Assembly (NCBI RefSeq): GCF_003788585.1
Contig: NZ_AYKG01000006.1
Coordinates: forward strand, 1-64,000
From: Salinisphaera japonica YTM-1
Lineage (GTDB): Bacteria; Pseudomonadota; Gammaproteobacteria; Nevskiales; Salinisphaeraceae
Length of the DNA: 64,000 nucleotides
Direction: 5' to 3'
Within the stretch, counting starts at the first letter, position 1, and every line of letters begins with the position of its first letter. Shown here in pieces: positions 4,264 to 63,057 of this stretch. Under the pieces are notes generated by a model. That model was not told where the DNA came from. It did not search any database and was given only the letters and a program-made list of their open reading frames with translations. The position numbers and the translations under genes were made by a program.

Positions 4264-5070
4264 TTGGCGCCCTGGCTCGAACATATTCTGCTTGCCGGCT
4301 GCGAACGGCTTGTGGGCCTGCGGGCCCACAAGCCGACGCCAGAGCAGCTGGCCCGCACCGTCATCGTGGCGCATCGCGGCGAGCGTGATGGCAAACAGAT
4401 CATTGAAAACACGCTGGCCGCCTTCGACCCGGTGGTGGCCGCCGGCGTGGGCGCCATCGAATTCGATATCCGCTATACCCGCGACGATGAGCCGGTCGTC
4501 CACCACGACGCGACCCTGGCCCGCACCTTCGACATCGATACCGCGATCGCTGATCTGAGCTGGGCCGAGCTGCAACGACAGGCGCCTGCCGTGGCGCATC
4601 TGAACACGATGATCGCGCGCTACGCCCGGCGCGCGGTGTTGATGATCGAGCTTAAGGAACGCGGCACGCCCGTGGCCGAGCAACGCCTGCACGCTGCCCT
4701 GCACGATCTGGTGCCGGTGCGCGATTATCGCTTCCTTTCGCTTGTACCGGCCCTGTTCGATGCCGTGGCCGATACGCCCGCCGCAGCACGCGTCATCGTG
4801 GCCAAGACCAACTGGCGCGACATGCGCGCGTGGTCGAAACAACACCCGTGTGGCGGCATCGCCGGCCCGTTTCTGTTCATTCGCCAGGCCGATATCGACA
4901 CGCTCACCGCCGACAATGCGTTTATCGGCAGCGGCTTTCTCACCCAACACAGCGCGCTGATGCACGAAATCGCCCGCGGCGTGCCCTGGATCTTCACCAA
5001 CCGGCCGTTGGCACTTCAGAGCATGGTCGACGCGGCGCTGGAAGAATCGTCCGCGAATGAACGCAAATAA
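4264..5070 (+). CDS. Glycerophosphodiester phosphodiesterase family protein
   Basis: Cytoplasmic GDPD-family TIM-barrel hydrolase that would split glycerophosphodiesters to glycerol-3-phosphate and an alcohol. Catalytic motifs are visible: AHRG (the His-Arg pair), IENT, EFDIRY, VVHHD and IELKERG. C-terminal IFTNRPL is also typical. The start is uncertain. TTG at 4264 has an AGGA six bases upstream and leaves a gap from the divergent PLP enzyme. ATG at 4105 or 4168 and GTG at 4312 are alternatives; the first two would overlap the divergent gene. No signal peptide is seen from this start. The substrate cannot be told from sequence. Confidence 0.82.
   Translation: MAPWLEHILLAGCERLVGLRAHKPTPEQLARTVIVAHRGERDGKQIIENTLAAFDPVVAAGVGAIEFDIRYTRDDEPVVHHDATLARTFDIDTAIADLSWAELQRQAPAVAHLNTMIARYARRAVLMIELKERGTPVAEQRLHAALHDLVPVRDYRFLSLVPALFDAVADTPAAARVIVAKTNWRDMRAWSKQHPCGGIAGPFLFIRQADIDTLTADNAFIGSGFLTQHSALMHEIARGVPWIFTNRPLALQSMVDAALEESSANERK
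4306..4335. other. Perfect 13-bp hairpin inside the 5' end of the GDPD gene
   Basis: The sequence cggcttgtgggcc, loop tgcg, then ggcccacaagccg is a perfect inverted repeat just downstream of the likeliest start codon and spanning the alternative GTG at 4312. It would form a very stable mRNA hairpin. There is no T run after it. Confidence 0.7.
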
Positions 5071-5530
5071 ACGCGAATAAGAAAAGACAATCCGCAGATT
5101 TCACAGATTGCGCAGATTGGTCAAGCGCCATGAGAGAGATCGGACTGCGACTAGAAGATCATCTTCTGAACTCTCGATTTCTTTTGCTTTTAATCTGTGC
5201 AATCTGCGTAATCTGCGGACAACCATCTGTATTCGTTCGCGTTTATTTGCGTTTATCCGCGGACGAATATTTCAGACACCATGCGATTCAAAGCGAATGA
5301 ATACAGGCAGTTATCCGCAGATGGACGCAGATTCAACGCAGATGACTCAAGCGATAGTTCCAAGCCTAGCGTCATAATTCACGCGACGCTGGACACGAGA
5401 AAGCTTTCAAGGATAAACGCGCTTCATATTGGGCCCAGAGAGCTATCCCATTCATCTTTTTTATCTGCGTTAATCGGCGTGGATCTGCGGATTGTCTTTC
5501 CTTAATTCGCGTTTATTCGCGGACGAGTAT
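5050..5530. repeat. Two large imperfect palindromes made of 'cgcgtttattcgcgga'-type repeats
   Basis: No gene is supported in this 460-bp space. About 5050-5270 forms one imperfect palindrome: the left arm contains ccgcgaatgaacgcaaataa and ccgcagatttcacagattgc, and the right arm contains their reverse complements with a few mismatches. About 5300-5530 forms a second: ttatccgcagatggacgcag on the left, tgcgttaatcggcgtggatc and gcgtttattcgcggacgagt on the right. Both right arms end in a near-identical tail (gcggacgaatatttcag and gcggacgagtatttcag). The left arm begins inside the last codons of the GDPD gene. Related words recur at 16342, 21471-23145 and 25385. Confidence 0.8.
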
Positions 5531-5531
5531 T

Positions 5532-6512
5532 TCAGGAACCATTCGACAAGCCCAGATGATCCCGCCCGTGCGGCGCATTAAAGTCGAGCGCTGGGCCCAG
5601 TGGAACGACGCCGCTTGGATTGATATCCGGATGGCTGCGGAAATAGTGCTGCTTGATATGGTTCATATCGACCGTTTCGGCCACGCCGGGCACTTGATAG
5701 AGCTCGCGTAGATAGCCCGACAGATGGGTGTAGTCGGCGATACGGCGCTCATTGCACTTGAAGTGGCTGTAGTAGACGGCGTCGAAGCGCACAAGAGTCA
5801 CGAAGATACGCCAGTCGGCCTCGGTGATGCGCCCGCCAGCAGCGTAGCGCTGATGCGCCAGGCGCGTGTCCAACCAGTCCAGGGTTTCGAAGACTTCGCC
5901 ATAGGCATTTTCGTAGGCTGCTTGCGAGGTGGCAAAACCGGCCTTGTAAACGCCGTTGTTCAACGGCTCATAGGTGGCTTCGTTCACCCGGTCGATCTCG
6001 GCCAGCAGCTCGGCGGGGACATAGTCAGCCTCCGGCTGCCCGGCCATATCGTCGAATACGCTGTTGAACATGCGGATGATATCGGCCGATTCGTTCGACA
6101 CGATGGTTTCGTGGCGCCTGTCCCAGAGCGTGGGCGTGGTCACGCGTCCGGTGTAATCGGGCGCGGCCTTCTGATACAGCTCGTGCAGATACGACAGGCC
6201 ATAGAGCGGATCCGGCACCGCGCCGCGTACGGTCGAGAACTGCCAGCCTTTTTCGCCCATGTACGGGTCGACAACCGACACGCCGATGATGTCTTCCAGG
6301 CCTTTCAAGCGGCGCAGGATCAGCGCGCGATGCGCCCACGGGCAAGCCAGCGATACGTATAGATGATACCGGCCGGCCTCGGGCGTGAACGGCTCGTCTT
6401 CACCGGCGCGTATCCAGTTACGAAACCCCGGCGACTCGCGTACGAATGCACCGCCGTGGGCCTCGGTGTCGTAGCCCTGGTCATGCCAGACGCCGTCGAT
6501 GAGCAGTCCCAT
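5532..6512 (-). CDS. yqjG: Glutathionyl-hydroquinone reductase (Xi-class GST, YqjG/EcfG family)
   Basis: 326-residue cytoplasmic enzyme that would reduce glutathionyl-hydroquinones with glutathione. The active-site segment SLACPWAH carries the family Cys in the CPWAH context; WDRRHETIVSNESADI and the C-terminal GST helical domain (NNGVYKAGFATSQ, ITEADWRIFVTLVRFD) are typical. The start at 6512 (MGLLIDG) is supported by AAAGGAG about seven bases upstream and by the family N-terminus, which has a VWHDQGY-type segment. It lies 11 bp after sppA on the same strand, so co-transcription is likely. The family assignment is firm; the natural substrate is not known. Confidence 0.92.
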   Translation of the reverse strand: MGLLIDGVWHDQGYDTEAHGGAFVRESPGFRNWIRAGEDEPFTPEAGRYHLYVSLACPWAHRALILRRLKGLEDIIGVSVVDPYMGEKGWQFSTVRGAVPDPLYGLSYLHELYQKAAPDYTGRVTTPTLWDRRHETIVSNESADIIRMFNSVFDDMAGQPEADYVPAELLAEIDRVNEATYEPLNNGVYKAGFATSQAAYENAYGEVFETLDWLDTRLAHQRYAAGGRITEADWRIFVTLVRFDAVYYSHFKCNERRIADYTHLSGYLRELYQVPGVAETVDMNHIKQHYFRSHPDINPSGVVPLGPALDFNAPHGRDHLGLSNGS

Positions 6513-16341: not shown

Positions 16342-16385
16342 ACGTGCATGTCAATTGGCGTGTATTTGCGGACCGGAAAAAATGG
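16342..16385. repeat. Solo fragment of the intergenic repeat family
   Basis: The stretch contains tgtcaattggcgtgtatttg followed by cggaccggaaaaaa. It matches the inverted-orientation unit seen at 22857 and 23110 (tctattggcgtgcattcgcgg). It lies in the 106-bp gap between the convergent corB-like gene and radA. Confidence 0.6.
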
Positions 16386-18896: not shown

Positions 18897-19970
18897 CTAC
18901 AGAACGTCGAAACGCACTCGCGGGGTCAACCGGCAGAATAATTCATACGCGATGGTACCGGCGGCCTGGGCGACATCATCGACGGGCAGGCCGCGGCCCC
19001 AGAGCGTGGCACGGTCGCCGATGGCGGCATGGGGGGCTGCGCGCAAATCGACCGTGATCATGTCCATCGATACCCGCCCGACGAGCGGCACGATGGCATC
19101 GCCGATCGCGACTGGCGTACCCGAGGGCGCGTGGCGCGGATAGCCATCGCCATAACCGATGCCGATCACGCCGATCGGCATCGGCTCGGGCGTGAGCCAG
19201 GTCGCCCCATAACCGATTGGCTCACCCGCGCCCAGATCACGTCGGCTGATCAGCGGCGCGCTCAGGTGCATGACCGGTGCCAGATCCAGATCTGCGCTGG
19301 TGCGGTCGGTCATCGGCGAGCTGCCATAGAGCATAATGCCCGGACGCAACCGGTCGGCGTGGCTGGCCGGCCAGGCGATCACGCCGGCCGAATTGGCGAT
19401 CGAGCGCGGCATGTCCAGGCCGGTCAGCGCCTCGTCGAAACAGGCCAGCTGATGATGGGTCAGCGGATCACGCGGGTCATCGGCACAGCCCAGATGGGTC
19501 ATGCAGCCGGCCAGCCGTACCTGGGTCATGGCCTTGATATCGGCCGTCAGGGCACGTGCCTCGTAGGCCGGGAAGCCCAGACGATGCATGCCGGAGTCCA
19601 GTTTGAGCCAGGCGGCGAGTTCCGGCCCGCGATAATCGGCCAGCGCGGCCAGATGCGCGCGCTCGAAGATCACCGGCGTGATGCCGTGCTCGCCCATCGC
19701 CGCCAGTACGTCGGCGGTCAACGGTTGGGACAGCGTCATGATCGGCCGTGTAATACCGGCCCAGCGCAGCTGTAGGGCCTCGTCGAGGCTGGAGACCGCA
19801 AACCCGTCACAGCCGGCCTCGGCCAGCGCCGTGGCAACAACGCCCGCGCCGTGGCCATAGCCATCGGCCTTGACCGCAGCAAAGACCTCTCGCGCTGGTG
19901 CCAGGTCCCATACACGGGCCAGGTTATGCACGAGTGCGGCGCGATCGATTGTGGCAACAGCGCGTTCCAT
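18897..19970 (-). CDS. alr: Alanine racemase
   Basis: 357-residue PLP enzyme making D-alanine for peptidoglycan. The PLP lysine is K34 in AAVKADGYGHG. The catalytic Tyr lies in GEPIGYGATW, and GYGDGYPR and VSMDMITVDL are diagnostic. Length is normal. Its ATG overlaps the dnaB stop by one base (TGATG), so translation is probably coupled. The dnaB-alr pair is the usual gammaproteobacterial arrangement. Confidence 0.96.
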   Translation of the reverse strand: MERAVATIDRAALVHNLARVWDLAPAREVFAAVKADGYGHGAGVVATALAEAGCDGFAVSSLDEALQLRWAGITRPIMTLSQPLTADVLAAMGEHGITPVIFERAHLAALADYRGPELAAWLKLDSGMHRLGFPAYEARALTADIKAMTQVRLAGCMTHLGCADDPRDPLTHHQLACFDEALTGLDMPRSIANSAGVIAWPASHADRLRPGIMLYGSSPMTDRTSADLDLAPVMHLSAPLISRRDLGAGEPIGYGATWLTPEPMPIGVIGIGYGDGYPRHAPSGTPVAIGDAIVPLVGRVSMDMITVDLRAAPHAAIGDRATLWGRGLPVDDVAQAAGTIAYELFCRLTPRVRFDVL

Positions 19971-21325
19971 CAGTCGATGAAGTCCTCGTCGTAATGATCC
20001 TGCAGATTTTCGAAACGGGTCAGATGCGACAGGAACGCCGTGCGTGCCACGCCCAGCGGGCCGTTACGCTGCTTGCCGATGATGATCTCGGCCACGCCCT
20101 TGTCGTCGCTGTCTTCGTTGTAGACCTCGTCACGATAGACGAACAGGATCACGTCGGCGTCCTGCTCGATACCCCCGGACTCACGCAGATCCGACATGCG
20201 CGGGCGCTTGTTGTCACGCTGCTCGACCTGGCGGTTGAGCTGGGACAGGGCGATGACCGGCACGTTGAGCTCCTTGGCCATGGCCTTGAGCTGACGCGAG
20301 ATCTCCGAGATTTCGTTGGTCCGGTTTTCCTTGGTGCCGGGGACCTGCATGAGCTGCAGGTAATCGACCACGACCAGCCCGATATCGTGTTCGCGCTTGA
20401 GACGCCGCGCCCGGGCACGCATTTCCGACGGCGACAGGCCGGCCGTGTCGTCGATGAACAGTTTGGCGTTCTCGTTCATGATCCCGATGGCCGAGGTGAT
20501 CTTTGGCCAATCGTCCTCGGTCAGCCGGCCGGATCTCAGGCGCGACTGATCCACCCGCCCCCAGGACGAGATCATACGAATCACGAGCTGCTCGGCCGGC
20601 ATTTCCAGAGAGAACACGGCCACCGGAATCTTTTCCTTGATGGCGATGTTCTCCACGATGTTCATGGCCAGCGATGTCTTGCCCATCGAGGGCCGGCCGG
20701 CCAGGATCAACAGATCGGCCGGCTGCAAGCCATTGGTGAGCTTGTCGAACTCGGCCAGGCCGGTCGGCACGCCGGAGAACGCGCCTTCGCGCGCGACCAG
20801 CTGCTCGATGTGATTGACGGCCTTGGTCAGCAGGGCGTTGAGGCCGATCGGCCCTTCGCCGCCCTTGCGCCCGCGCTCGGCGATGGCAAAGATCTCTTTC
20901 TCGGCCCCGCCCAGCAATTCATCGGCCGTCTGGCCCTGCGGATCGAACGAGGACGTGGTGATCTGGTCGCCAGCGCGGATGAGCTGGCGCATGACCGATC
21001 GCTCGCGCACGATATCCGCATAGGCCTTGATATTGGCCGCGCTTGGAATATCCGCGGCCAACTGGCCGATATAGGTCGCCCCACCCGCTTTTTCGAGCAA
21101 GTCGTTGGTCCGCAACCACTCGGTCAGCGTGACCAGATCGCGCGGCTGGTTGCGATCCGCCAGATCCGCCAGGCCGCGATAGAGCAGGCGATGATCCTCG
21201 CGATAGAAATCGCCCTCGTGGATCGCCCCGGCCACGTCGTCCCAGGCTTTCTCAGACAACAACAGACCGCCGATGACCGATTGTTCGGCCTCGAGCGAAT
21301 GCGGGGGCAGCTTGGATTCGGCCAT
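19970..21325 (-). CDS. dnaB: Replicative DNA helicase DnaB
   Basis: 451-residue hexameric 5'-3' helicase. The N-terminal domain begins with PPHSLEAEQSVIGG. The RecA-like C-terminal domain has Walker A AGRPSMGKTSLA, Walker B VVVDYLQLM, ALSQLNRQVEQR and DLRESGGIEQDADVILF. There is no sign of an intein. Upstream, instead of joining rplI closely, it is separated by a long array of repeats. Confidence 0.97.
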   Translation of the reverse strand: MAESKLPPHSLEAEQSVIGGLLLSEKAWDDVAGAIHEGDFYREDHRLLYRGLADLADRNQPRDLVTLTEWLRTNDLLEKAGGATYIGQLAADIPSAANIKAYADIVRERSVMRQLIRAGDQITTSSFDPQGQTADELLGGAEKEIFAIAERGRKGGEGPIGLNALLTKAVNHIEQLVAREGAFSGVPTGLAEFDKLTNGLQPADLLILAGRPSMGKTSLAMNIVENIAIKEKIPVAVFSLEMPAEQLVIRMISSWGRVDQSRLRSGRLTEDDWPKITSAIGIMNENAKLFIDDTAGLSPSEMRARARRLKREHDIGLVVVDYLQLMQVPGTKENRTNEISEISRQLKAMAKELNVPVIALSQLNRQVEQRDNKRPRMSDLRESGGIEQDADVILFVYRDEVYNEDSDDKGVAEIIIGKQRNGPLGVARTAFLSHLTRFENLQDHYDEDFID

Positions 21326-21470
21326 GGGCAGGCGCGCTCGGTCGCTAAGGAACGCGCAGTTTACGTCAGGTGGCGTTGCGACTTCACGGCTTGTGATTCT
21401 CGCCGCCCTGCGCTCGCGTTATAGCCTGCGGTGGCCACTTGCGCCCTGTGCTCTCTTTGAGACTCGTGTA

Positions 21471-23145
21471 CTGCTTGTTGGCACGTTCCGCTTGGTTTTT
21501 CCGGTCCGCAAATGCACGCGAACAGACGCGAATATTGGGCGTGGCGAGGACTTTAGCTCGGGCGTTTTTGCTGGCTGCCTGCGGGCGCGGCGGGATGGTC
21601 GCAAGGCGATGGCTGGTTCGCGGACCTGTCGGCCAGTCGTTCGCAGGCGTTTCGATTTGGATGGCTTCGTTCCTGAATGATCGCGAATAAGCGCGCTCGC
21701 TTCAGGGTTAGACGGGCTTTGCGTGATTGTTTGTTGGTGCGTTCCGCTTTGTTCTTCCGGTCCGCAAATGCACGCCAATAGACGCGAATATTGGGCGTGG
21801 TGGGCACTCTAGTTCGGGCGTTTTGACTGGCTGCTTGCGGGAGGGGCGGGATGGTCGCAAGGCGATGGCTGGCTCGCGGACCTGTCGGCCGGTGTGGCGC
21901 AGGCGTGTAGATTTGGGGCTTCGTTCCTGAATAATCGCAAATAAGCGCGGGCGCTTTCGGATTTGCGGGACTTGGCGTCGTGGTTGGTTGGTGCGTTCCG
22001 TTTTGCTCTTCTCGTCCGCAAATGCACGCCAATAGACGCGAATATTGGGCGTGGTGGGTACTTTAGTTCGCGTGTTTTGACTAGCTGCTTGCGGGAGCGG
22101 CGGGATGGTCGCAAGGCGATGGCTGGCTCGGCCGGTCGTTCGCAGGCGTTTCGATTTGGATGGCTTCGTTCCTGAATGATCGCGAATAAGCGCGGGCACT
22201 TTCGGGTTCGCGGGACTTGGCGTGCTGGTTTTTTTGACGCGTTTTGCCTTATTTTTTCGGTCCGCAAATGCACGCCAATAGACGCGAATATTGGGCTTGG
22301 TGGGCACTCTAGTTCGCGTGTTTTGACTGGCTGCTTGCGGGAGCGGCGGGATGGTCGCAAGGCGATGGCTGGCCCGCGGACCTGTCGGCCAGTTGTTCGC
22401 AGGCGTTCGAGTTAGATGGCTTCGTCCCTGAATGAACGCGAATAAGAGCGGGCGTTTCTCGGTTTGAAGGATTGACGTGGCATGGGGCGACGACATATCG
22501 CGTTCATACATGCGCGTAGTCGGGCAGCGCGGTTGTCCCGCGCTACTGCTGACCGAAAACACGACGGGTATCGGCCCGCTTCAACGCTCGAAGTTTCTCG
22601 ATTTGAATCTGTGTCTATCCGCGTCCGTCTCCAGACAAATTAAGCCCGAGTACCTCGAAACCCAGCACGCCAGTCCCGCAAACCCGACCGAGCCTGCTCT
22701 TATTTGCGGTCATTCAGGACCGGAGCCGCAAATACACACGCCTGCACCACACCGGCCGACAAGTCCGCGGGCCAGCAAGCGCCCAACGACCATTCATCCG
22801 CGCCCGCAAGCATTTGACCCAAGCATTGAAACAACGAGCGCCACCAGGTCCAACATTCGCGTCTATTTGCGTACATTTGCGGACCGAAAAAAATAAGGCG
22901 AAACGCGCCAAAAAAACCAGCACGCCAAGTCCCGTAACCTCCGGGCGCCCGCTTTTATTTGCGGTCATTGAGGACCGAAGCCGCAAATTCACACGCCTGC
23001 ACCACACCGGCCGACGCGTCCGCGGGCCAGCAGGCGCTCGACGACCATTCATCCGCCGCCGCAAGCACTCAACCCAGGCGTCAGAACAACAAACACCACC
23101 CGGCCCAACATTCGCGTCTATTGGCGTGCATTCGCGGACTGATGC
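21471..23145. repeat. Array of six ~250-bp repeat units, four direct then two inverted
   Basis: No gene is supported in the 1.9-kb space 21326-23236. The word gtccgcaaatgcacg occurs at about 21504, 21760, 22014 and 22260, giving periods of 256, 254 and 246. Each unit also shares gacgcgaatattggg, gggatggtcgcaaggcgatgg, gcggacctgtcggcc and a cgttcctgaatgatcgcgaa tail. After a spacer (about 22480-22690) two units occur in reverse complement, with ttcgcgtctatt at about 22857 and 23110 (period 253). Unit sequences differ by substitutions and small indels, so the array is not recent. Reading frames that cross it arise from the repeat itself and look non-coding. Confidence 0.9.
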
Positions 23146-23180
23146 TTTCAGGAACAGCCGCCAAAACAGAACATCGGAAC

Positions 23181-23216
23181 AAAAAAAAACGCCGCCTTGG
23201 AGGGCGGCGTTTTTTC
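23181..23216. terminator. Intrinsic terminator downstream of rplI
   Basis: A run of nine A, a hairpin cgccgcc/ggcggcg with a five-base loop, then six T. On the minus strand it ends the rpsF-rpsR-rplI operon about 20 bp after the rplI stop; its symmetry also stops plus-strand reading. Confidence 0.9.
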
Positions 23217-23236: not shown

Positions 23237-23842
23237 TTAGGGCTCTTCGCGCTCGCCGATCGGGGCATCAGCCTCGGTAGCCGAGGCATCGGCCGGCTCG
23301 CCGGCGTCTTCGACGCGCTCGCCTTCGACTTCTTCAGCCGTGGCATCGTCTTCGGTGTTCTCATTGATGCGCGCGGGCATGTTCACGCCCATATCAGTCT
23401 GTTGCGCAACAACGATTTCAATATCGACAACGACCTCGGCGTGCAACGTCAGCTCGGCGTTGTAGTAGCCAACCTGACGGATCGTGCCTTCGGTCAGCGT
23501 GACTTCACGCGGATCGAGCTCGATGCCGTCGTCATTGACCTTCTCGGCGATCTCCTGCGGGCCAACCGACCCGTAGAGCTTGCCTTCGTCCGAGGCACGC
23601 ATGGCGATCACGAAAGACTGGCCACGCAGCTGGCCGGCCCGCAGATTCGCGCGGTCTTCGCGCTCCTGCGATGCGGCTTCCAGCTCGGCGCGACGCTCTT
23701 GGAAGACGGCCATGTTGTTCTTCGTGGCCGGCAGGGCCATGCCACGCGGAAACAGATAGTTACGACCGTAACCGGCACGCACCTTCACGGTGTCGCCGAG
23801 ATCGCCCAGGTTGCGGATTTTCTGTAGCAGTACGACGTCCAC
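23237..23842 (-). CDS. rplI: 50S ribosomal protein L9 with acidic C-terminal tail
   Basis: 201-residue L9; most bacterial L9 proteins are about 150. The N-terminal domain is clear (MDVVLLQKIRNLGDLGDTV, RNYLFPRGMALPAT). A long helix and the C-terminal domain (LYGSVGPQEIAEKV, GYYNAELTLHAEV) follow. After about residue 150 it continues as a strongly acidic, Ala/Glu/Asp-rich tail (EDDATAEEVEGERVED). Last gene of rpsF-rpsR-rplI, 9 bp after rpsR. Confidence 0.96.
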   Translation of the reverse strand: MDVVLLQKIRNLGDLGDTVKVRAGYGRNYLFPRGMALPATKNNMAVFQERRAELEAASQEREDRANLRAGQLRGQSFVIAMRASDEGKLYGSVGPQEIAEKVNDDGIELDPREVTLTEGTIRQVGYYNAELTLHAEVVVDIEIVVAQQTDMGVNMPARINENTEDDATAEEVEGERVEDAGEPADASATEADAPIGEREEP

Positions 23843-25384: not shown

Positions 25385-25560
25385 GTCCGCGAATGAATAC
25401 AGACAGGAATCCGCCGATGAACACCGATGGCCGCAGATAAAAGAAAAAACGATCACTGAATAAAACAAAGATCGTTTCGCCTCAAAACGAATAGAGCTCG
25501 TCGGATCAGCGTTGTCTTATCTGCGTGAATTCGCATTCATTTGCAGACAATGTTTAGCGA
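25385..25560. repeat. Palindromic copy of the intergenic repeat family
   Basis: The gap between rlmB and the OmpA lipoprotein gene has no supported gene. It has a left arm gtccgcgaatgaatacagac plus gatggccgcagataaaag and a right arm cttatctgcgtgaattcgca plus ttcatttgcagacaa, which are imperfect reverse complements. The words match those at 5050-5530. Confidence 0.7.
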
Positions 25561-30129: not shown

Positions 30130-31485
30130 TTAGGCGAGAAACGCGAAATACGCCACGAACACCGCGAACAGGCCGTAGAGGATCGGGTGCAGCTCACGGG
30201 CCCGCCCGGCAAAGACCATCGTCACCGGATAGATCACCAGTCCCAGGGCGATGCCGTTGGCGATGCTGTAGGTGGCCGGCATCGCGATGAGCGTGAGAAA
30301 CGCCGGCACGGCGATCTCGAGGCGTTTCCAGTCGATCTCATCGAGTGCGGCCACCATCAGCACGCCCACGATGATCAGCGCTGGCGCGGTCACGTTGGCC
30401 GTCACCACAGCAAGCAGCGGCGAAAAGAAAAGTGCGGCCGCGAAGAACCCGGCCGTAATCAGCGCCGAAAAGCCGGTCCGTGCGCCGGTGGCCACACCCG
30501 CGGTGGACTCGATGTATGAGGTCGTCGGCGAGGTGCCGATCACCGCCGAGGCCACCACCGAGGATGAATCAGCCAACAGCGCGGCACGCGCCCGCTTCAT
30601 GCGATTGCCCTGCATCAGCCCGGCCTTGCTGGCCACGGCCATGAGCGTGCCCGCGGTATCGAAGAACTCCACGAACAGAAACGTCAGGACCACAACAGCC
30701 AGATTGAGGGTGAAAACCTCCTCCGGATGCGCGAACAGCTGCGTGACGGCCACGCCGAATACCGGCGCCACGGACGGAATGCCGGACACGATGGCACCCG
30801 GGACATCAATCACGCCCGTGGCCATGCCGGCCAATGAGGTGGCGACCATGCCGAAGAAGATCGCCCCGGGAAAGCGCCGCAACATGAGTGCGACCGATAA
30901 CACGAGTCCGAAGATCGTGAGCAGCGTGGCCGGCGCGGTCAGATCGCCGAGTGTGACCAGCGTGGCCTGGCTGTCGACGACAATGTTCGAATCCTCCAGG
31001 CCGATGAGCGCGATGAACAGCCCGATGCCACAGGCCGCGGCCAGCTTCAGATCCAGCGGAATGGCATCGAGAATCATCTCGCGGATACGAAAGAACGTGA
31101 TCGCCACGAAGATGATGCCGGAGAACAACACGCCAACCAGCGCGGTCTGCCAGGACACGCCCATGCCCAGGACCACGGAATAGGCAAAGAAAGCGTTCAA
31201 CCCCATGCTGGGCGCGATGCCCACGGGATAACGCGCGATCAGGCCCATGAGCGCCGTGCCCACTATCGCGGCCAGCGCCGTGGCCGTGAATACGGCCCCG
31301 CGATCCATGCCGGCGGCCGCGAGGATCGTGGGGTTCACGAACATGATGTAGGCCATGGCCAGGAAGGTGGTCAACCCGCCCAGCGTTTCGCGCCGAAAAT
31401 CGGTGCCCTCGCCCGCAAAATCGAAATGTCGGGCGATGGCACCAGCCATGCCGGTCCGTGAGGGTCCGTAGGGGGAATCGTTCAT
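30130..31485 (-). CDS. NCS2-family purine (adenine/guanine/hypoxanthine) permease, AzgA-like
   Basis: 451-residue permease with 12-14 hydrophobic segments. Typical AzgA-branch features are RETLGGLTTFLAMAYIMFVNP near the N-terminus, GLNAFFAYSVVLGMG (substrate region), LFVEFFDTAGTLMAVASKAGL and SPTTSYIESTAGVATGARTG. The start at 31485 (MNDSPYGP) is preferred to the TTG at 31500. Together with the convergent deaminase and nearby purA it suggests adenine uptake and salvage. Confidence 0.9.
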   Translation of the reverse strand: MNDSPYGPSRTGMAGAIARHFDFAGEGTDFRRETLGGLTTFLAMAYIMFVNPTILAAAGMDRGAVFTATALAAIVGTALMGLIARYPVGIAPSMGLNAFFAYSVVLGMGVSWQTALVGVLFSGIIFVAITFFRIREMILDAIPLDLKLAAACGIGLFIALIGLEDSNIVVDSQATLVTLGDLTAPATLLTIFGLVLSVALMLRRFPGAIFFGMVATSLAGMATGVIDVPGAIVSGIPSVAPVFGVAVTQLFAHPEEVFTLNLAVVVLTFLFVEFFDTAGTLMAVASKAGLMQGNRMKRARAALLADSSSVVASAVIGTSPTTSYIESTAGVATGARTGFSALITAGFFAAALFFSPLLAVVTANVTAPALIIVGVLMVAALDEIDWKRLEIAVPAFLTLIAMPATYSIANGIALGLVIYPVTMVFAGRARELHPILYGLFAVFVAYFAFLA

Positions 31486-62567: not shown

Positions 62568-63057
62568 ATGGGCTCGATCACCGGCAAGTTCGGCTGTACG
62601 CCTGAGACATTGCGCAGCTCGGTTCACGAGGCGGAGCGCGATCGCGGACTGCGCGACGGCCAGACCACGGAAGAACGTGAACGCGCCAAAGCGCTTGAGT
62701 GAGAGAACCGCGAGCTAACGATATCCTTCGCAAGGCGTCCGCGTATTTTGCCCAATAGGGCCTCGACCGCCGAGGCAAGTGATGATCGATTTCATCGACG
62801 ATCACCGCGACGTCTACGGTGTCGAGCCAATCGGCAAGATCCTGCCGATGGCACCGTCGACGTGTCACGAAGCCAAGCGTCGAACGTCTGAGCCCAGCCG
62901 CCGATCGGCCCGCCAAAAGCGTGATGCCGAGCTACGTGACGTTATCCAGCAGACCCGGGAGGCTAACCTGTGCGTCTACGGTGCCCGAAAAAGCTGGCGC
63001 TAAGTTACAGCACGATCGCTGGCAAATCGCCCGTTGCGCGGTCGAACGATTGTTTAT
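62568..63057 (+). pseudogene. Degraded IS3-family transposase (OrfA and OrfB remnants)
   Basis: OrfA-like text (GKFGCTPETLRS, HEAERDRGLRDGQTTEERERAKALE) runs into a TGA, then ENREL, then loses frame with bases missing. OrfB begins near 62780 (MIDFIDDHRDVYGVEPIGKILPMAPSTCHEAKRR) and continues (RDAELRDVIQQTREANLCVYGARK) to a frameshift and stop near 63001; the following bases still encode LQHDRWQIARCAVERL in another frame. Both genes are truncated and inactive. It differs in subgroup from the remnant at 56465. It forms the right edge of the island next to tRNA-Arg. Confidence 0.85.

Follow-up and report, generated by a model that had tools for sequence, protein, structure and literature searches.

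Why should the spacer between rplI and dnaB, a ribosomal-replication locus, hold an array of ~250-bp repeats in Salinisphaera japonica YTM-1? Within the window (the whole stretch of DNA analysed, 64,000 nucleotides; features in Table 1), the best ungapped 100-nt self-matches of 21400-23200 reached 96 in direct and 84 in inverted orientation against maxima of 51 (100 resamples) and 56 (40 resamples) for first-order Markov resamples, which bears out the periodicity claimed in the preliminary description. The repeat search identified four direct units of 214 nt each (starts 21407, 21663, 21917 and 22163; spacing 256, 254 and 246), whose identity to the reference copy at 21663 was 69, 88 and 70% for the other three, and two units of 230 nt in the inverted orientation that were 82% identical to each other; the four-plus-two arrangement and the direct spacings agree with what had first been described, while the inverted spacing is 255 rather than 253. 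Pairings between the direct and inverted groups extended over 195, 157 and 141 nt at 77, 71 and 82% complementarity. Each unit carries one 30-bp arm (A) in which a ~10-bp word is iterated three times, and a sister arm, B (ATCCGCAGATNNACGCAGAT), is often nested within A arms. The A core pattern was found at six places in the array, four in the plus then two in the minus orientation, i.e. facing each other. Outside the arm, ~200 bp of each array unit resembles nothing else found except, weakly, sequence in two other arrays of the same genome. The alignment with Salinisphaera sp. UBA1666, whose DnaB is 98% identical, breaks at window position 21406 and picks up again at 23180, so that the array is slightly wider than the 21471-23145 originally given.

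Table 1. Array, arms, short elements and flanking genes in the window, by position.
Feature	Position	Strand	Basis
Two ordinary short elements, adjacent (A+ B+ B- A-, then B+ B- A-)	5049..5534	.	arm scan and G011 comparison
Lone A arm, absent at the same place in G011	16354..16373	-	arm scan and G011 comparison
dnaB, flanking the array	19970-21325	minus	
Whole array, stretch absent from Salinisphaera UBA1666 (L054)	21407..23179	.	alignment gap and repeat search
A arm, direct unit 1	21504..21533	+	core pattern, 1 mismatch
A arm, direct unit 2	21760..21789	+	core pattern, 0 mismatches
A arm, direct unit 3	22014..22043	+	core pattern, 0 mismatches
A arm, direct unit 4	22260..22289	+	core pattern, 0 mismatches
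Degenerate second arm in unit 4; similar motif at the same place in the other units	22424..22443	+	arm scan for unit 4; repeat comparison for the others
Array centre, between direct and inverted units, unexplained	22479..22657	.	sequence reading
Inverted unit 1, A arm at 22855-22884	22658..22887	-	repeat search and core pattern
Inverted unit 2, A arm at 23110-23139	22913..23142	-	repeat search and core pattern
Terminator-like hairpin of rplI, outside the array, retained in relatives	23190..23209	-	sequence reading
rplI, flanking the array	23237-23842	minus	
Short element, B+ then A-	25409..25558	.	arm scan

None of the six open reading frames (ORFs) through the array matched Pfam at E 0.1, and the longest had no match in NCBIfam at E 0.001; the gaps between direct units were 1, 2, 8, 10 and 11 nt, and the variable columns across units fell on all three codon positions (19/76, 20/78 and 28/78). 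A coding sequence was ruled out on these grounds, and the array can be taken as non-coding. No Rfam family reached its gathering score at the array, so that a known RNA family was likewise rejected (at gathering scores only) and the earlier remark that no named family is known for such arrays holds. Elsewhere in the window, positions 62740-62856 matched the ALIL pseudoknot (RF01497, 84 bits), which serves IS3-type elements as a signal for frameshifting.

The rplI-dnaB spacer of nine close relatives (L054-L062, of which eight are labelled Salinisphaera and one Endozoicomonas sp. G2_2) was short, kept the terminator-like hairpin behind rplI and contained no A arm. The array, missing from this spacer in 9/9, is an insertion specific to its lineage and is as unusual for the locus as had been supposed. 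A short stretch in the UBA1666 spacer, ATCTGCGAAATCTGCGGTT, resembles the remnant of a B-type arm. Searches of plasmid and phage collections for a relative of the array (blastn, word size 11, E 0.01) gave no match in either, and this possibility was dropped. In Salinisphaera NP40, an array of four direct and one inverted arms with a spacing of 412-433 lies on the opposite side of dnaB (L057:8502-9886).

A genome-wide copy count of the unit consensus gave 22 matches, full-length only for the six array units, with the others covering 29-60 nt from the consensus start. The 30-nt A core (GTCCGCAAATNNACGCNAATNNACGCNAAT, up to three mismatches) occurred at 108 genome sites (51 + 57) and its reversed control at none. 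The common form of these elements is A+, ~42 bp, B+, loop, B-, ~43 bp, A-, ~230 bp in total; among the sites listed, same-type neighbours within 500 bp were facing in 40 cases and back-to-back in one for A, and in 46 and nine cases, respectively, for B. The linkers of the two arms (GAATACAGRCGGTT and AAAAGAAAGACA) differed from each other in most of the 20 elements listed, and the elements therefore seem to be polar. Further arrays in the same genome were found on contigs C13 (2 + 2) and C1 (2 + 2). Close to the ends of contigs C2, C11 and C55 (L140, L144 and L194), similar sequence occurs near AGGGCCTGTTGCCGTTTCATACGAG and is probably an insertion-sequence end breaking the assembly.

Comparison of window 5326-5533 with L212:1766-1973 of another genome of the genus (G011) revealed an element the opposite way round at the orthologous place, the window having one element more. 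Inversion between facing arms, as proposed earlier, is plausible in view of this switch in orientation, and none was seen for the array. The same description had also envisaged a giant cruciform and suggested a check for conserved RNA structure. Selection on the pairing itself would fit the array halves, which are complementary over long stretches; however, 150-nt stretches of three units folded like their shuffles (z = 0.04, 1.11 and -0.28), no Rfam family matched, and no co-variation of left and right arms was found at the variable arm columns. The agreement of A arms with their own partners was 0.575 vs 0.558 when shuffled (399/2000 shuffles as high), and that of B arms 0.419 vs 0.415 (736/2000 as high; some B rows out of register). 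A conserved hairpin was rejected on the folding and the arm comparison, and we regard selection on pairing, whether in RNA or in a cruciform, as extremely improbable.

The position of the arms relative to genes was strongly biased. Among the sites listed, 55 arm clusters had a predicted gene on both sides, 31 of them between convergent and 24 between codirectional genes with none between divergent genes, as opposed to six, 39 and 15, respectively, of 60 element-free spacers of at least 30 bp taken from the window and five other stretches (Fisher p 9e-8 for the convergent excess and 3e-5 for the divergent deficit). These counts derive from 59 clusters among the sites listed, four being dropped since they had a gene on one side only, with three contig-start sites outside the count, L017 left out as covered by L147, and L157, which overlaps a predicted gene by ~40 bp, entered as codirectional; genes were called with our own codon-usage finder, which missed the GxxExxY ORF inside cluster L146. 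Such a bias, together with the persistence of some clusters at orthologous places in G011, could be expected of a functional repeat under selection, for instance one that binds a nucleoid or topology protein or that signals the end of transcription where convergent genes meet. However, the arms are patchy in the genus (10/14 genomes), the array is absent in the nine relatives, the copy number, order and orientation of clusters change between species, and avoidance of promoters would yield the same context bias without function, which together make a selected function rather unlikely. A host role for the array is not needed, as sites behind the 3' ends of genes may simply be tolerated.

In the array's own genome, a facing pair at C16:30724-31172 brackets a gene (30795-31136) of the GxxExxY family (TIGR04256 / PF13366), which is named for its motif and to which the model title assigns no function; a second GxxExxY gene, likewise between arms, lies at C10:49842-50177. 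In its fuller form, the element consists of a GxxExxY gene of ~125 aa (PD-(D/E)XK fold family) between two facing arms. Since the array itself has no GxxExxY gene between its arms (no Pfam match, six ORFs), we term it a gene-less derivative. PF13366 was present in 9/14 genomes of the genus and the A arm, scored in its A spelling only, in 10/14; the four genomes without an A arm also had no GxxExxY gene (Fisher p 0.005), and one genome (G002) had 12 A-arm sites and no such gene. Five of the 15 GxxExxY genes in the genus, in the array's own genome and four relatives, had A arms on both sides, nine were flanked by B-like arms on at least one side, and one (G009) had arms of a third spelling, TCACGCAAAGGCGCAAAGACGC, the types of 13/15 loci being assigned by reading the flanks and three genomes (G007, G010 and G011) being only 81-87% complete. 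The five genomes with an A-type gene had the highest A-arm counts (14, 21, 60, 88 and 108 vs 0-12 in the other nine; exact p 0.0005, for a pattern spotted post hoc, after the data had been seen).

Both types of protein matched TIGR04256 (2e-43 for the A-type protein of L225 and 7e-41 for the B-type protein of L238). No solved protein chain resembled the GxxExxY protein by sequence (best E 2.6). The A-type genes of all five genomes sit between carA and carB, as shown at L225 by profile searches, which gave the small and large subunits of carbamoyl-phosphate synthase as neighbours, and as assigned elsewhere by reading similar flanks; the carA-carB element is absent in G011 (126 bp vs 480 bp between aligned flanks). 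The neighbours of the B-type gene of L238 matched positions 4-354 and 356-825 of a methionine synthase model, one on each side; at this and similar loci, metH is split in two and the gene sits exactly at the break, as though the element were its mark or its cause. In several GxxExxY genes the start codon lies within the left arm (e.g. ATGGACGCGAATGAAGAA, MDANEE, L226).

The association of gene and arms extends beyond the genus. PF13366 was detected in 37/229 genomes sampled from the class and 64/398 sampled from the phylum, and arms were scored as the best 24-nt ungapped match (threshold at least 18/24) between the 150 bp preceding a gene and the reverse-complemented 150 bp that follow the gene. 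In the class set (15 loci from the genus and 28 further loci, one of them, L234, unusable at a contig end), facing arms were found at 31/42 GxxExxY loci vs 7/237 shifted positions and 58/600 cross-locus pairings; in the phylum set, all from one bacterial family outside the class, they were found at 28/30 new loci vs 2/166 shifted and 102/600 cross-paired. The cross-locus pairings reach the threshold because words are common within lineages. Combined, 59/72 testable loci, the best-scoring ones from the searches, had matching facing arms vs 9/403 shifted controls, and the 13/72 below the threshold included some with arms visible by eye (L240) and others where one side showed none (L256, L267). 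Self-matching of the phylum-set arms peaked at lags 9 and 10 (0.38 and 0.39; 0.23-0.31 at most other lags and 0.34 at 16). The words (CACAGAG, GCAGAT, GCAAAG, GCGAAT, GCCAAG, CACGGAA, CACGAAG, ACAGGAT, AATCCTG) differ between lineages and agree at both ends of one gene. Arm similarity tracked protein identity (Mantel r 0.60, 0/5000 permutations, 31 loci), which speaks for one unit of inheritance and not for recognition because linked parts share a history, as arms and gene would even if the protein never touched the arms. Residues that, judged by the fold, are those of the PD-(D/E)XK catalytic site were kept in nearly all proteins (D 40/43, E 43/43, K 41/43). In the GxxExxY motif, E and Y were present in 43/43, as was a Q further along the protein.

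A second gene family, S23p (PF05635, 23S_rRNA_IVP), was present in 45/229 genomes of the class, with matching facing arms at 29/30 loci (L268-L297) vs 4/167 shifted positions and with arm words whose length, judged by eye, is often 7 nt; this layout fits that described for the Coxiella 23S intervening sequence. One genome (G121; one contig, 2.86 Mb) contained 11 sites of B spelling in compact facing pairs and no PF13366 match. Its elements (L201-L208) are hairpin-like and ~110 nt long, with AACCGCAGAT-type arms and AT-rich outer flanks.

The reading that we favour, and hold to be somewhat more probable than not, derives the array from an intervening-sequence-like selfish element whose fuller form carries the GxxExxY gene; the array would be a gene-less derivative, specific to this lineage and amplified locally. 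The iterated word of the arms would be the site at which the GxxExxY protein binds or cuts, and DNA flanked by these arms, gene-less copies included, could spread in trans by means of this protein. Once the element had inserted into the rplI-dnaB spacer, recombination among the repeats may have raised the number of ~250-bp units to the four direct and two inverted copies. The closest comparisons, at only about 90% identity and with strongly diverged junctions in the relatives, showed no target-site duplication.

Other modes of spread have to be weighed against this one. The facing arms, their location in spacers and their copy number would equally fit a miniature inverted-repeat transposable element (MITE) of a classical insertion sequence with iterated ends, for which the GxxExxY gene would be cargo, and sequence reading points to insertion-sequence-like ends near arms at three contig ends. 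However, inspection by eye and two family searches recognised no transposase between the facing arms of the stretches examined, and the arms track the GxxExxY lineage across the class, so that we consider this origin unlikely. The ORFs within a 1.9-kb facing pair of G005, where a transposase was sought, read by eye as other proteins. Facing pairs in spacers, tandem clusters and high copy number are also described for REPINs in the available text of PMC3116915, and genes of the RAYT family (PF01797) are present, both of which would fit REP/REPIN-type miniature elements moved by a RAYT (Y1) transposase. PF01797 was found, however, in 14/14 genomes of the genus including the four without an A arm, its presence being independent of the arms, and RAYT was therefore rejected as a driver that tracks them; furthermore, sequence reading shows the arm to be a direct iteration without the 5-13-bp stem or GTAG/CGTC tag given for REPs in the accessible part of PMC3733652. 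Movement by RAYT is, in our estimation, very unlikely.

Returning to the intervening-sequence-like element, we put forward tentatively, as a possibility that may well prove wrong, that a broad class of selfish elements exists outside rRNA genes. Its members would comprise a small ORF (a GxxExxY nuclease fold or an S23p four-helix bundle) between facing arms in which a 7-10-nt word is iterated; this word would be private to a lineage and read by the protein, which would move or copy whatever it flanks. Gene-less pairs and arrays would be passengers and debris, and a sizeable part of those intergenic repeats that consist of words such as CACAGAG, GCAGAT and GCAAAG and still lack an explanation might belong here. 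We know of no function assigned to GxxExxY and S23p proteins, which occur in many lineages. At most of the loci examined, they are encoded between facing, iterated arms specific to the lineage, which marks both as candidates for mobility proteins acting on a defined substrate. If the proposal is true, it provides an origin for scattered bacterial repeats, and the array is explained without a ribosomal or replication role. In the open-access literature (titles and opening abstracts, with preprints and most subscription journals outside), no tie between GxxExxY genes and such arms was found. Among the matches listed, no paper on intergenic repeats or on Salinisphaera concerned this arm family, and searches with the repeat words as text gave nothing about such repeats by title; passages naming GxxExxY-type families did not, in the portions available, deal with the gene flanks.

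The nearest known kinds are intervening sequence (IVS) elements and REPINs. MITEs consist of gene-less DNA between inverted ends that has multiplied in spacers, which also describes the gene-less elements here, although the ends of the latter are an iterated short word, and neither a target duplication nor a parent transposase was found in a limited search. REPs and REPINs, according to the parts of PMC3116915 and PMC3733652 available, are short repeats that form inverted pairs in spacers, occur in many copies, cluster in tandem and flank a partner gene. The elements in Salinisphaera resemble them in all of these respects but differ in that the arm has no REP tag or short palindrome and that RAYT presence does not track arm presence in the genus. 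The IVS of the Coxiella burnetii 23S rRNA gene is presented in the accessible text of PMC4990558 as a selfish element with one small S23p ORF within terminal inverted repeats, with tandem heptamers just before the start codon and an ORF under reductive evolution; such sequences lie inside rRNA genes and are excised from the RNA by RNase III. In contrast, the elements described here are found between protein genes (the array between rplI and dnaB, with no match to rRNA genes within the window), the gene is GxxExxY, and most copies, including the array, have no ORF. These points of difference aside, a single small ORF between inverted ends of an iterated word is the layout common to the Coxiella IVS and many of the GxxExxY and S23p loci, and the array, having no ORF, does not show it.
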